Below, piece after piece: positions 12,213-17,164 of a stretch of 29,120 bases of DNA. Position 1 is the first letter of the stretch. Each line of letters opens with the position of its first letter. Both the position numbers and the translations under genes were made by a program. The stretch spans positions 1 through 29,120 of the IMG/VR virus record IMGVR_UViG_3300025423_000069; one strand, given 5' to 3'. The notes under the pieces are model-generated. The model saw only the letters and a program-made list of their open reading frames with translations. It was not told the origin of the DNA and made no database searches. Source of the stretch: a virus.

Positions 12213-12761
12213 ATGGCAATTCTTAGAGACTACTTTTGTGAAAGTCACGGCATATTTGAGGCTTGGGAACCCCAGTGCCCTATGAAAATGTGCAAAGCAC
12301 AAATATCCATCGTGCACTTAAAGCCTGTAGGAACCAGAAGTGATAGAACAAAAAAGGCAGATGAAAGCCTAAAAGGACTTGCCAAAGACTTTCAAATGAC
12401 GGATATTAAGAGTACCCGTGCAGGTGAACACCAGACAGGGTATCTCACTAGAAACAACGAACTCACACAGAAAGAGTTGGATTTTGTTGAGGGTGCTCAA
12501 GCTGAGAAAGAGCGTCAGATATTGGCACAAGGACCTAAACCACCAGCTCTTCCCAGAGAGGCTCGCCCTGGTGACGCAGCCATGTGGGGTGCTCAAGGCA
12601 GTATCAGTATGAACTCTGTGATGGGTGGGCAGTTCAGGCCAGTCAAGGATGAGGCAGTCAGTATTTTGCCCCATCAAGCCTCGCCAACTGGTAGACTAGC
12701 AGGTCCGATAGCGGGGAACGGGTCTATGAAAGACCATCAAAACTTACAGGTGGATAAATGA
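12213..12761 (+). CDS. Conserved phage protein with N-terminal Cys/His motif
   Basis: The first 30 residues (DYFCESHGIFEAWEPQCPMK, ending MC) resemble a zinc ribbon. Then TKKADESLKGLAKDF, MTDIKSTRAGEHQTGYLTRN follows, which I recognise as a recurring family located between terminase and portal. The C-terminal 80 residues are Pro/Gly/Ser-rich and disordered. A role in head assembly is inferred from its place. AGAGGG precedes ATG, and the stop overlaps the portal start (ATGA). Confidence 0.72.
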   Translation: MAILRDYFCESHGIFEAWEPQCPMKMCKAQISIVHLKPVGTRSDRTKKADESLKGLAKDFQMTDIKSTRAGEHQTGYLTRNNELTQKELDFVEGAQAEKERQILAQGPKPPALPREARPGDAAMWGAQGSISMNSVMGGQFRPVKDEAVSILPHQASPTGRLAGPIAGNGSMKDHQNLQVDK

Positions 12762-14395
12762 GAATACCGAGTAATGATTTAGACAGAGAAGAGTTTTATC
12801 TAGACTTGATTCGTAAATGCACCGTCTCTGTCAACGAAAGAAAGACTGATTACCAAAACCTCCGCTCTTGGTATCTGTTTGGAAATGGCCCTAGTCAAGC
12901 TCCTGCCATCTACAACAAAATCTTTCCCCATCTAGACCAGCTTACGTCTTTTCTTTACTCGGCTGAAACCACCAGATTCTCTATCAACACGGGGGCAGCA
13001 GTCCCCGACAGTGAACAAGCCAAAGTACCCGTATTGACCCGTGCTCTCAATGATGAGTGGCTAAATAGCAACGCTGACCAAGTGTTCTCTACAGCCACCA
13101 CTTGGGCACTGGTTTACAACTCTTGTTTTGTCAAACTCATCATGCGTAATGGTGAACCTCACCCCTACGTGGTTGAGCCTCAGTGTATCGGTGTCCTCAG
13201 AGAAGATACCACTTACACTGACCGACAAGAAGCCTTAGTACACACGTACTACATTACCAAATCAGAACTCTATGACCGCCTCTACAACCATCCTAGACGG
13301 GATGCAATTGTCAAACGCTTGTCTCTGGTAGTCCATGAGAGGACTGAAGTGGCTAACGGCATGGAGCGTATCCTGATGTCGCAGACCAATCCTCAGCTCT
13401 ACGGTAATGTGAACCTCGATTTATCGGGGCAAAACCGTTATAAAGCAATGGTTGCAGAGGATACAGTGGAGATGACAGAGCTTTGGGTGTGGAATGACGA
13501 TACCCAAGACTACCAAGTGGTCACCAAAGCAGACCCAGACATCATTGTTTACGACCGTTCTGGGGAAGAATTGTTTCTCAAAGGCGAATTACCCTTTGTG
13601 CAAATCTGTCCCAACCCCCTTTACGACTACTATTGGGGGGGTAGCGAGGTTCAGCGACTGGTCTATTTGCAGGAATTAAGGAACAACAGACTGACTGATG
13701 TACTTGATTTACTATCAAAACAAGTCAATCCACCCACTGCTTTTATCGGTTTTACGGGTATTTCTGAGGAAAAACTGTTCGCTTTGAACCGTGCAGGGGG
13801 TCAAATCAGCAATGATATGCCCAATGCCAAGGTAGACAGGCTTCCACCTAACATGCCTAACGATTTATTCTCTGAAATACGGGATATTGACCAAATGTTT
13901 GAGGAAGCAAGCGGTATTGGCAATGTTTTACAAGGAAAAGGCGAATCTGGGGTGCGTAGCTCTGGTCACGCCTCTCAATTGGCCCGTCTAGGTTCATCAC
14001 GGGTCAAAAAGAGGGCACTCATCATTGAAGACAGCCTGGAAAAGCTCGCAACGCTCTACATGAAGTGTATGCAAGCCTACAATCCCACGCATTTCAAAGA
14101 CATTAACCATTTACCGTTCATTGCTGAGCAATTTACCAAAGATTATGTGGTGAAAGTGGATGCACACTCTAATTCACCCATCTTTGTAGAAGACCAGCGT
14201 CAGATGGCGTTCAATCTCCTCAAAGTGGGTGCAATTGATAAGGAAAGTCTGCTTGACTTGACAGAACCACCTATGAAACAATTGTTGAAAGACCGTTTGA
14301 AAAAGATGGAAGCCAAGCAAGCTCAACAGCAAGCCTCAGCTTCACCCAAAGGTCCTGAACACAAAGAGAAACCTGAACTCAAAAAGGTGGGATGA
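12758..14395 (+). CDS. Portal protein
   Basis: This 545-residue protein would form the dodecameric ring at the DNA-entry vertex. Recognisable parts are YLFGNGPSQAPAIYNKIFPH near the N-terminus, WALVYNSCFVKLIM, VVEPQCIGVLREDTTYTDRQ, and YDYYWGGSEVQRLVYLQELR. Later SGVRSSGHASQLARLGSSR corresponds to the conserved RS-rich crown/stem region of this portal group. The C-terminus is a Gln/Lys coiled tail. It lies between the terminase genes and the scaffold/capsid genes as expected. Confidence 0.85.
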   Translation: MRIPSNDLDREEFYLDLIRKCTVSVNERKTDYQNLRSWYLFGNGPSQAPAIYNKIFPHLDQLTSFLYSAETTRFSINTGAAVPDSEQAKVPVLTRALNDEWLNSNADQVFSTATTWALVYNSCFVKLIMRNGEPHPYVVEPQCIGVLREDTTYTDRQEALVHTYYITKSELYDRLYNHPRRDAIVKRLSLVVHERTEVANGMERILMSQTNPQLYGNVNLDLSGQNRYKAMVAEDTVEMTELWVWNDDTQDYQVVTKADPDIIVYDRSGEELFLKGELPFVQICPNPLYDYYWGGSEVQRLVYLQELRNNRLTDVLDLLSKQVNPPTAFIGFTGISEEKLFALNRAGGQISNDMPNAKVDRLPPNMPNDLFSEIRDIDQMFEEASGIGNVLQGKGESGVRSSGHASQLARLGSSRVKKRALIIEDSLEKLATLYMKCMQAYNPTHFKDINHLPFIAEQFTKDYVVKVDAHSNSPIFVEDQRQMAFNLLKVGAIDKESLLDLTEPPMKQLLKDRLKKMEAKQAQQQASASPKGPEHKEKPELKKVG

Positions 14396-14559
14396 TGGCT
14401 ACAAGTCAACAGACACAACCTAAAGCTGACCAGCCACGGGTGCAGACCAGCTCGCTCAAAAAAACTGAATCCATGCCTAGCTTGACACGCAGTCAGTCAG
14501 GTGTTAAAAATGCGTCTGGCGGTAGGACTCAGAGGGACTACGCCAGGCAAGGTCGTTAA
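14395..14559 (+). CDS. Small basic disordered protein, 54 residues
   Basis: ATG at 14395 (or 14392, one codon earlier) overlaps the portal stop; AGGTGGG upstream is a good ribosome site. The product MATSQQTQPKADQPRVQTSS, then LKKTESMPSLTRSQSG and TQRDYARQGR, is polar and Ser/Gln/Arg-rich with no predicted fold. No family recognised. It is translated with portal and could be a virion-associated or assembly protein. Confidence 0.6.
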   Translation: MATSQQTQPKADQPRVQTSSLKKTESMPSLTRSQSGVKNASGGRTQRDYARQGR

Positions 14560-14577
14560 CAACTTAAGGAGTACGTT

Positions 14578-14619
14578 ATGTACAAAACTCATAAGCGTGG
14601 TCGCAAGACCAAGCGTTAA
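14578..14619 (+). CDS. 13-residue Arg/Lys peptide, copy 1
   Basis: AAGGAG lies eight bases before ATG; the product is MYKTHKRGRKTKR, ending AAGCGT-TAA. Nine of 13 residues are His, Lys or Arg. A second, similar peptide is encoded at 14699 with its own ribosome site. Two such units in a row between portal and scaffold are hard to attribute to chance. Function unknown; nucleic-acid or capsid-interior binding is a guess. Confidence 0.5.
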   Translation: MYKTHKRGRKTKR

Positions 14620-14698
14620 TTGGTTCTTTTGCAAAGAAGAAAGGGGTGTGTCGCTCTCCCTAAAAAACGAGTGGCATAACTTTTCAAGGAGCGATACC

Positions 14699-14740
14699 AT
14701 GAAACGTGGAGCAAAACGCACAAAACGCAGCAAGCGTTAA
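14699..14740 (+). CDS. 13-residue Arg/Lys peptide, copy 2
   Basis: AAGGAG lies eight bases before ATG; the product is MKRGAKRTKRSKR, also ending AAGCGT-TAA. It shares the KRGxK...TKR pattern with copy 1. Eight of 13 residues are Lys or Arg. Confidence 0.5.
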   Translation: MKRGAKRTKRSKR

Positions 14741-14759
14741 TCCGCAAGGGTTAAGTCTT

Positions 14760-14781
14760 GGGGGCAGACTAAAAAGCCCCC
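14760..14781 (+). repeat. GC-rich hairpin between mini-peptides and scaffold cluster
   Basis: GGGGGC (14760-14765) and GCCCCC (14776-14781) enclose a 10-base A-rich loop. No T-run follows on either side, so termination is unlikely to be efficient; mRNA processing or protection is possible. Confidence 0.45.
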
Positions 14782-14786
14782 ACCTA

Positions 14787-14815
14787 TTGACAAACTGTTA
14801 GTAACTTGTTGAAAT
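14787..14815 (+). promoter_or_regulatory. Candidate promoter ahead of the capsid cluster
   Basis: A perfect TTGACA (14787-14792), a 17-base spacer and TGAAAT (14810-14815, four of six). The predicted start would be about 13 bases before ATG 14835, a short leader that still contains AGGAG. It follows the hairpin directly, which would allow separate high expression of the capsid genes. Confidence 0.4.
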
Positions 14816-14834
14816 ACTGACATTAGGAGTTTAT

Positions 14835-15332
14835 ATGAGTGTTCCGCAAGACAAGTTAATGGAGTTGATGCGTGGCCCGCAGAGTGCTGGTGCTGCTGCT
14901 CCTACGCCCATGCCTAGTGCAGGGCCTGGCCCCCAGTCTGACGGCATGTCTCCTCCAATGGCTTCTCCCATGTCTACTCCTGAGCCAAAGATGGGAAGCA
15001 AAGAGGCTGCAATGATTAACATTGGCATGGCAATGGATTTGCTAGAGCAGTCTCTCCCAGCTTTAGGCAGTGAATCAGAAGAGGGTCAAAAGGCACTCAC
15101 AGCGATTCGCAATTTGACATCCGTGCTTGGTCCACGTAAAAACAAAACCAACGAATTACAGCAGTCTGAAATTCTTCAGATGTTACAAACATTGCCACAG
15201 GCGGGTGGTGCAACCCCTGAAGGAAAAGCAATGGCAGCAGCACCTATTCCTGGTATGCCTCCTGCTGGCGGTATGCCTCCCCCGTCTCCCCCTCCTGGTG
15301 GAATGCCAGGTCTTCCCCCTCCCCCAATGTAA
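14835..15332 (+). CDS. Pro/Gly/Met-rich conserved phage protein
   Basis: The 165-residue product has a short helix (SVPQDKLMELMRG), a Pro/Ala/Met-rich linker, and a central helical part (KEAAMINIGMAMDLLEQSLP, ALTAIRNLTSVLG). It ends in a Pro-Gly-Met tail of MPPxGG-type repeats. Similar proteins occur between portal and scaffold in related phages; role unknown, head assembly likely from position. TAGGAG precedes ATG. Confidence 0.68.
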   Translation: MSVPQDKLMELMRGPQSAGAAAPTPMPSAGPGPQSDGMSPPMASPMSTPEPKMGSKEAAMINIGMAMDLLEQSLPALGSESEEGQKALTAIRNLTSVLGPRKNKTNELQQSEILQMLQTLPQAGGATPEGKAMAAAPIPGMPPAGGMPPPSPPPGGMPGLPPPPM

Positions 15333-15544: not shown

Positions 15545-16084
15545 ATGTCTTTAGAAAACTTATCTTTAGAAGCTCGTGATGAATTGGCTTCCTTGGCTCA
15601 AACAATGGCTGAGGACCCCAAGACACGTGAGGCTTTTTTGCGCTTGACTCAACAAGTTAAGCCTGATTTGCAGATTCCTGAAATTCAAATCAAGGATTCA
15701 ACTCGTGCTGAAATCAATCAGATTAGGCAAGAGAATGCTGCTCTTCAGGCCAAAATGAGAGAAAGGGATGCTCTTGAAGAACTATCTAGCAGACGCAATA
15801 GCTTGGTCAAAAAAGGTCTTATTGAATCTGAAGACGAAGTTAAAGACGTTGAGAAACTAATGCTTGAGCGTGGTATTACTAACCATGAAACCGCAGCCGA
15901 ATATCATAACTGGATGAAGCAAGCTGCCAAGCCTACACCATCTGGTTACAATCCCAATGCCATGAGCGGGTTTGACCTGAAGGGTTATTGGAAGAATCCC
16001 GTGTCTGCTGCTAGAAATGAAGCAGCCAAGGCATTGAATGAATTGCGTAATCCTAGAGGCATGAGGCCCATAGGATTAAATTGA
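15545..16084 (+). CDS. Capsid scaffolding-like protein
   Basis: This 179-residue, mostly helical protein has a coiled-coil stretch (EINQIRQENAALQAKMRERD), a second helical pair (VKDVEKLMLERGITNHETAA), and a Gly/Asn/Pro-containing C-terminal part with MSGFDLKGYWKNP. Position directly before the major capsid gene, size and coiled coil fit a scaffold that would template procapsid assembly. That assignment is inference. AGAGGG is the ribosome site. Confidence 0.6.
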   Translation: MSLENLSLEARDELASLAQTMAEDPKTREAFLRLTQQVKPDLQIPEIQIKDSTRAEINQIRQENAALQAKMRERDALEELSSRRNSLVKKGLIESEDEVKDVEKLMLERGITNHETAAEYHNWMKQAAKPTPSGYNPNAMSGFDLKGYWKNPVSAARNEAAKALNELRNPRGMRPIGLN

Positions 16085-16141: not shown

Positions 16142-17164
16142 ATGGCTATAGGTGGTGGTATTCTGCCAGCAACAGGGTCGAGTCAGTTTACTGAGTTAAC
16201 CTACGTTACCCGCAGAGCTTTTATTCCAAAACTCGTTGTACAACTGTACAACAGCACGCCCTTGATGGCAGCATTGATTGCAAACAGTCAACAAGCCTCT
16301 GGTGGTGTGTCTTCTGTAACCGTGCCTGTTCAGGGTGCTCAATTTGTGAATGCTCAGTGGTCTGACTATTCTGGTTCATTTAACCAGCCGTCAGTTCAGC
16401 AGGGTGCTTACAACGCTGAGTATGACCTCAAGCTAATGATTTCTCCCGTACCGTTCCTCGGTATGGAGGGAGCCGTTCAGCAAGACGCAGCTATTATTCC
16501 GTTGATTGAAGCTCGTATGAACGATGCAACCAACGTGATGATGGATGCAATGGCAACAGCTTTGTACAACAACACAACCAACAACCAACAGTTCATCGGC
16601 TTGCCCGCTGCTGTGGATGATGGTACAGGTGGTTCTACATACCAAGTCACTTACGGTAACATCAACCGTAATACCAATACCTGGTGGCAGTCCAAAGTGT
16701 ACGCTGCTGGTAACACAAACCCCACAAGACAAAACATTCTCCAGTACATCTCTGGTACAGTGAAAAAAGGCGCAGAAATGCCTTCTTTCGGTGTCTGCGG
16801 ATTTGGTACTTGGACATTGTTGGCTCAAGACTTTGTTGGTCAAGAGCAATATGTTATTACCCCAGGTTCAGCCTTTGATGGCGATAACAATGGTCCTCAA
16901 GCAGCATTCAGAGCACTGATGGTTGCTGGTGTGCCAATTTATCCTGACCCATACTGCCCAGAAGGTACGGTCTATTTCTTGAACACCAACTACTTGAGCT
17001 TGTACATCCACGAGCAAGGTTCATTTGTGTTCACAGGATTTGAGTCTACTCTTCCCAACTGGCAGATTGGTTACGTTGGTGCGGTTATTATGATTGCCGA
17101 ATTGGTAAGCGTGAAACCAAAATCAATGTCCAAAGTCACTGGCTACAACTACTTGTCACTATAA
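16142..17164 (+). CDS. Major capsid protein
   Basis: This 340-residue protein is the probable HK97-fold shell subunit. Landmarks are ELTYVTRRAFIPKLVVQLYN, STPLMAALI, the Gln/Gly/Val-rich sheet region, EYDLKLMISPVPFLGMEGAV, IEARMNDATNVMMDAMATAL, and near the end FVFTGFESTLPNWQIGYVGA. The order (N-terminal anchor, IPLIEARMNDATN spine helix, C-terminal P-domain strand) matches major capsid proteins of related podovirus-like phages. It lies right after the scaffold-like gene and has a strong AAGGAG site. Confidence 0.85.
   Translation: MAIGGGILPATGSSQFTELTYVTRRAFIPKLVVQLYNSTPLMAALIANSQQASGGVSSVTVPVQGAQFVNAQWSDYSGSFNQPSVQQGAYNAEYDLKLMISPVPFLGMEGAVQQDAAIIPLIEARMNDATNVMMDAMATALYNNTTNNQQFIGLPAAVDDGTGGSTYQVTYGNINRNTNTWWQSKVYAAGNTNPTRQNILQYISGTVKKGAEMPSFGVCGFGTWTLLAQDFVGQEQYVITPGSAFDGDNNGPQAAFRALMVAGVPIYPDPYCPEGTVYFLNTNYLSLYIHEQGSFVFTGFESTLPNWQIGYVGAVIMIAELVSVKPKSMSKVTGYNYLSL

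Follow-up and report, generated by a model that had tools for sequence, protein, structure and literature searches.

Conservation points to a family of 9–15-residue basic microproteins encoded between the portal and capsid genes of freshwater phages

Do very short Lys/Arg-rich reading frames in the gap between the portal and capsid genes of a phage represent genes, and if so, what might their products do? The stretch of viral DNA analysed here (the window, 29,120 nt) contains two such frames, mini1 and mini2, downstream of the portal gene (Table 1). Frames of this size lie below the reach of ordinary gene callers, profile searches and BLAST.

Two short basic frames follow the portal gene

We confirmed on the window sequence that both minis are ATG-started frames preceded by AAGGAG and ending in AAG CGT TAA, as a first-pass annotation had described them. 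That annotation placed the two ribosome-binding sites at the same distance from the start codon; the spacers are in fact one base apart (6 versus 7 nt), and both are proper for initiation. The motif KRGxK...TKR is present in both peptides (KRGRK-TKR and KRGAKRTKR), but the exact sharing is peculiar to the mini2 of this phage, as relatives mostly carry MRKARKGRKSRK. The minis lie 3′ of the portal gene, as stated, and their placement between portal and scaffold holds only loosely, because a 165-aa gene follows them and the scaffold candidate lies further on. Gene callers were expected to leave a gap at the minis, and both GenBank relatives (MW202825 and MW202753) indeed carry the same mini pair unannotated, with no forward gene there. 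Reverse-strand hypothetical genes, which are probably spurious annotations, are drawn over the forward minis in these records (L082:6779-7039 in MW202825 and L083:4740-5038 in MW202753).

Table 1. Features of the portal–capsid region in the window
Feature	Position	Strand	Description
Portal protein gene	12758..14395	+	SU10 portal family, PF23899, E 1.5e-8; query for fetching relatives
54-aa basic disordered frame	14395..14559	+	Directly 3′ of portal; in relatives too; annotated in MW202753
Shine-Dalgarno AAGGAG of mini1	14566..14571	+	6 nt spacer to ATG
mini1 gene	14578..14619	+	MYKTHKRGRKTKR, 13 aa, net +7, Y-type; family consensus MYKAHKRGRKTRR
Small hairpin after mini1	14624..14638	+	TTCTTT-TGC-AAAGAA; loop mostly GNRA-like in relatives, as in TTCCC-CGCAA-GGGAA
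PK1, putative H-type RNA pseudoknot	14642..14678	+	5′ of mini2 Shine-Dalgarno; S1 AGGG/CCCT, S2 GTCGCTC/GAGTGGC
Shine-Dalgarno AAGGAG of mini2	14686..14691	+	7 nt spacer to ATG; conserved
mini2 gene	14699..14740	+	MKRGAKRTKRSKR, 13 aa, net +8; family consensus MRKARKGRKSRK / MARKARKGRKSRK
PK2, putative H-type RNA pseudoknot	14754..14782	+	After mini2; S1 AGTCT/AGACT, S2 TGGGGGC/GCCCCCA, A-rich loop
TTGACA, 17 nt, then TGAAAT	14787..14815	+	TACAAA in many relatives; likely promoter of following head genes; overlaps inverted repeat
165-aa head-operon gene	14835..15332	+	Pro/Gly/Met-rich; no family match
Scaffold-like gene	15545..16084	+	Directly 5′ of major capsid gene; assigned by position only
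Major capsid protein (MCP) gene	16142..17164	+	phrog_9953, E 2.7e-36

Among the neighbours of the minis, family matches were obtained for the portal, terminase, adaptor and major capsid proteins only, and the 54-aa frame had no PHROG or Pfam match. In one relative (L566), the counterpart of the 54-aa frame ends in GGRKGKRY, which resembles the tail of a mini. Two further small proteins encoded in the window are strongly basic, one at 642-872 that matches DUF6321 (E 1e-13) and one at 869-1015 with a net charge of about +19 when its upstream extension is included and no match. The lineage consists of SU10-portal-type freshwater phages of about 33-37 kb with SU10-family portal and adaptor proteins. 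No cultured member is present in the phage collection, and the portal matched two environmental records only. MAG bins of beta-proteobacteria or Legionella give a weak hint at the host.

We scanned both strands of the 29-kb window for Shine-Dalgarno-preceded frames of 9-18 aa in which K/R make up at least 45% of the residues, and found none besides mini1 and mini2. Among 5000 dinucleotide shuffles of the 278-nt gap, a single one gave one such frame and none gave the two that are observed.

The minis occur throughout the lineage in one to three copies

All loci used for the main statistics were fetched by portal or terminase and never by peptide. The first portal query returned 80 IMG/VR loci. 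Counting the window, 67 loci extended 500 nt or more beyond the portal, and both minis were found in 67/67 of these. Further queries with portals and terminases of divergent members enlarged the sample to 213 full-length portals, with identities down to about 59-64%. At least one mini was present in the portal gap of all 213 loci (the window and its relatives). The scan counted two copies in 160 loci, one in 37 and three in 15, and scored zero in L578. The check proposed in the first-pass annotation, for conserved short frames at this gap in related genomes, thus came out in its favour, and relatives lacking such frames were not found. Two apparently mini-less relatives were rejected as such: L578 has three minis, displaced ~1 kb downstream by an inserted gene, and in L421 the portal match breaks off inside the portal gene. 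The L578 insertion is a ~1 kb foreign gene (L578:2894-3799, a 302-aa frame with a HESLHRG motif and no solid Pfam match) between the portal and the 54-aa frame, and the three minis are undisturbed.

Because the copy-number thresholds demand an ATG and a Shine-Dalgarno site, some counts of one are conservative; L326, for example, has a GTG-started mini1. A FastTree portal tree shows clades with three copies and clades with one, and copies have been gained and lost several times. Up to 24 changes of copy number fall on this tree, an upper estimate owing to the same thresholds. The copies in one three-copy clade (L554, L557, L566, L568 and L575) are separated by spacers of 40-65 nt without a recognisable PK1 between them. 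Two stable subtypes, a Y-type mini1 and an MRK/MAR-type mini2, are spread over the sampled lineage. The duplication proposed in the first-pass annotation is plausible, given that the copies are alike and number one to three, but it is not recent, because these subtypes span the sampled lineage.

As a control, we counted all Shine-Dalgarno-preceded ATG frames of 9-19 aa in the 650 nt that follow the portal match in 214 unique relatives. This revealed 398 basic frames (at least 42% K/R) against 5 other short frames. That the minis arose by chance or form the end of a longer frame has a negligible probability, even though a 79-aa GTG frame (14501-14740) is open in this window. An in-frame upstream stop lies within 10 codons in 201 of 406 minis in relatives and within 30 codons in 372 of the 406, which rules out the tail of a longer gene. 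Chance is contradicted by the shuffles of the gap and by the presence of minis in 213/213 loci, and together with the short-frame control the shuffles refute it at the sequence level; conservation in relatives settles the matter. The earlier argument against chance, from duplication and two conserved start signals, was therefore strongly borne out.

Peptide pattern searches, whose peptide-selected loci were kept out of the main statistics, recovered only loci of this lineage, always with the minis in the same gap. Every mini occurrence found lies between the portal and capsid genes. A generic DNA pattern for extra minis, applied to the whole genomes of the relatives, matched unrelated sites, and a reversed control matched equally often. 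The minis are absent from distant capsid relatives with an MCP 23-31% identical (Stenotrophomonas BUCT555, a TM7 phage, a Microcystis phage and MW202803) and from Hydrogenobaculum phage 1, which is related by terminase.

Selection acts on the peptides

In the loci selected by portal or terminase, pN/pS was 0.36-0.45 in the mini frame versus 1.2-3.9 in the other two frames. Codons vary freely among synonyms but the encoded residues are retained, Gly, Thr and Tyr among them, and nearly all relatives keep a Shine-Dalgarno site at about 4-8 nt, the stop codon being kept too. Because selection acts on the peptide, the minis are almost certainly translated. The 406 occurrences comprise 149 distinct peptides, with four acidic residues in all; among 197 peptides, the K/R fraction is 0.60 and a single residue is acidic. 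The remaining positions are filled by Gly, Ala, Thr and Ser, with no hydrophobic core and no bulky hydrophobic residues. In 44 thirteen-residue variants of mini1, position 10 is Lys in 43 and position 13 is Arg in all 44, and T11, G8 and Y2 are also mostly conserved. Judged from these patterns, the minis are a conserved microprotein gene family of 9-15 residues in one to three tandem copies, a length below the 20-residue limit of profile and structure searches.

Putative pseudoknots flank mini2

The gap as a whole folds better than its shuffles (z -3.7), and mini2 is flanked by the putative pseudoknots PK1 and PK2, which the first-pass annotation did not mention. Downstream of mini2, the order is a small hairpin, PK2, TTGACA, 17 nt and a weak -10-like hexamer. 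We assessed complementarity in 2000 permutations that exchanged 3′ strands between 32 sequences with a pairwise similarity ratio <0.90, a test that ignores relatedness; for PK1-S2, PK2-S1 and PK2-S2, none of the 2000 permutations reached the observed value. PK2 S2 has 22 distinct 5′ strands in the 32 sequences. Variants of PK2-S1 include TGTC/GACA, CATC/GATG, CGAC/GTCG, ATTC/GAAT, TCCC/GGGA, CCGC/GCGG and ACCC/GGGT, and this stem is weak in rows L004, L007, L009, L010 and L264. PK1 S1 is nearly invariant (AGGG/CCCT) and so lends no covariation support, and pair counts for PK1 by MAFFT alignment columns are noisier, the 3′ strand being out of register in some rows. Covariation support for PK1 and PK2 is thus strong but not final. 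No RNA element of the gap matched Rfam above the gathering score.

Reading the loci by eye, and bearing in mind that they are not independent events, we found PK1 upstream of mini2 in 23/23 loci with only an MRK/MAR-type mini2 and missing in 8/8 mini1-only loci. This count omits L447 and L488, which have divergent single minis of ambiguous type, both without PK1. From this distribution and their positions, PK1 is assigned to mini2 and PK2 to the next head gene. Minis persist without PK1 in L382, L425, L437, L441, L412 and L368, and without PK1 and PK2 in L509, L511 and L488. The last three loci rule out that the peptides act only via PK1 and PK2; because minis persist where both pseudoknots are gone, they are genes in their own right and not parts of an RNA device.

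TTGACA is present in 29/29 rows of alignment A2, which were chosen by containing it, and is absent in clade L315-L323; a consensus promoter scan of the window did not report this site. In the same alignment, the -10 region is overlapped by an inverted repeat, GTTTGTAA-GTGG-TTACAAAC, which in this phage reads GTTAGTA/TACTGAC (window 14787-14830). TTGACA and the inverted repeat are a possible regulated late promoter.

Possible functions of the peptides

In the most likely reading, to which we give a probability of about 0.4, the minis bind nucleic acid in head assembly or packaging in the manner of protamines or phiX174 J. Condensation of DNA, binding to portal or scaffold, and action on host nucleic acid had been suggested as possible roles in the first-pass annotation. 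The free peptides would probably have phage DNA as their ligand, or else RNA trapped in the assembling head, and would be minor or transient components of the particle while the head is assembled and the genome packaged. A nucleic-acid-binding head factor fits best because of the composition of the peptides, their fixed place between portal and capsid and their tolerance of copy-number change. A particle or assembly role is favoured because all minis lie between the portal and capsid genes and were kept in place despite the L578 insertion. Because loci have one, two or three copies and copies were gained and lost several times on the portal tree, the copies would be partly redundant, so that a phage may drop one copy or acquire a third but would always retain at least one. 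Each pseudoknot would probably set the translation of the gene that follows it, mini2 for PK1 and the next head gene for PK2. Condensation of DNA is opposed by several points: neutralising a 35-kb genome with a 13-mer would take many copies, Mg2+ and polyamines are what tailed dsDNA phages usually rely on, and the more distant capsid relatives (MCP 23-31% identical) manage without minis. The position-specific choice of Lys or Arg (K10 and R13 in mini1) is also more specific than pure charge neutralisation needs and, together with Tyr2 of mini1, would be compatible with a specific partner, either RNA or protein.

One such partner could be structured phage mRNA, including PK1 and PK2, to which the peptides would bind like arginine-rich motifs and so tune how strongly mini2 and the next head gene are translated. 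The specific K/R positions, the two covarying pseudoknots that flank mini2 and the precedent of T4 gp32, a phage protein that represses its own message via a 5′ pseudoknot (PMC535899), all suit this explanation. We nevertheless consider it unlikely: minis are kept without PK1 or without both pseudoknots, so these cannot be the only target, and the travelling of PK1 with mini2 equally fits a cis-element of mini2. The explanation that the translation of the minis matters and not their product, with ribosomes on the Lys/Arg-rich frames controlling RNA structures or coupling downstream genes, draws on the same arrangement, in which short frames with Shine-Dalgarno sites adjoin RNA structure as in attenuators. 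It is improbable given that residues are kept while synonymous codons are free, that the frames persist without either pseudoknot, that one, two or three copies suffice, and that PK2 has no T run and is not an intrinsic terminator.

Alternatively, the peptides may be assembly cofactors that bind an acidic surface of the portal, the scaffold or the 165-aa protein and nucleate or stabilise the procapsid. Their strict linkage to the portal–scaffold gap speaks for this, as do the conserved Tyr2 of mini1, suggesting one specific contact, and the net charges of the portal (-11), gp14835 (-3) and MCP (-7) in this phage. By contrast, the scaffold candidate is near neutral (-1), the subtypes differ in sequence and the loss of either copy is tolerated, which leaves such cofactors a small chance. 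Little probability attaches to peptides directed at the host, binding its rRNA, tRNA or nucleases or acting on membranes late in infection; the composition also seems similar to that of ribosomal tails and cationic peptides, but the minis always sit among head-operon genes and never beside genes for host takeover or lysis, and they have no amphipathic or hydrophobic character.

A nucleic-acid-binding role in the head thus remains our preferred reading of the minis. We put forward only tentatively the fuller model, in which the tandem 9-15-residue peptides, whose genes would rank among the smallest conserved in viruses, would be dosage-tunable nucleic-acid-condensing or assembly factors of the head, and a separate mRNA pseudoknot would precede each of mini2 and the next head gene. 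What the statistics document here is the conservation of protein-coding genes with only 9-15 codons in a diverse phage lineage, whose portal identities go down to about 60%. The phages that bear them are an abundant group of freshwater bacterial viruses. The findings suggest that entire gene families, evolving in copy number, can go unnoticed in the 'intergenic' gaps of structural operons in phages. Should the peptides prove to be part of the particle, a J-like or protamine-like element would exist in tailed dsDNA phages. The two covarying pseudoknots constitute an RNA finding apart from the minis.

Comparison with known systems

The minis are too short for profile search, and no known family was close enough for membership. 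Fremin et al. 2022 reportedly catalogued microbial and phage small-gene families; like those families and those of GMSC, the minis are conserved unannotated small genes, and such catalogues may contain single members of the mini family. GMSC takes frames from 30 nt, and its recovery of homologues drops drastically at about 20 aa (PMC11364881).

PK1 resembles the translational operator of T4 gene 32, in which an H-type pseudoknot lies 5′ of a Shine-Dalgarno site in phage mRNA (PMC535899). PK1 and PK2 differ from this operator in that their sequence and genes are unrelated, and neither matches an Rfam family. In arginine-rich-motif peptides such as lambda N, with lambda N/boxB as the compared example, and Tat, a stretch of about 10-15 basic residues is enough to bind RNA specifically. 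The minis are similarly short and basic, with structured RNA next door; unlike in lambda N and Tat, the mini peptide is the whole protein and persists without the neighbouring RNAs.

Like protamines and small basic viral condensing peptides, the minis are dominated by Lys and Arg, have almost no acidic residues and are of disordered composition. Unlike protamines, they are much shorter and have position-specific Lys and Arg, and packaging with DNA, as seen for peptides of that kind, can be extended to the minis only by analogy. The J protein of microviruses (the phiX174/G4/alpha3 group) is a small basic peptide of 24-38 aa encoded by a single-copy gene in the head-gene cluster of ssDNA phages, just 5′ of the major capsid gene. 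The minis share with J their small size, basic character and position among head genes, and they are likewise highly basic with almost no acidic residues, whereas their 9-15 residues, too short for a homology test, their one to three tandem copies and their tailed dsDNA phage set them apart. Inside the shell, J is located with the genome (PMC13386984); the minis may have a comparable place.
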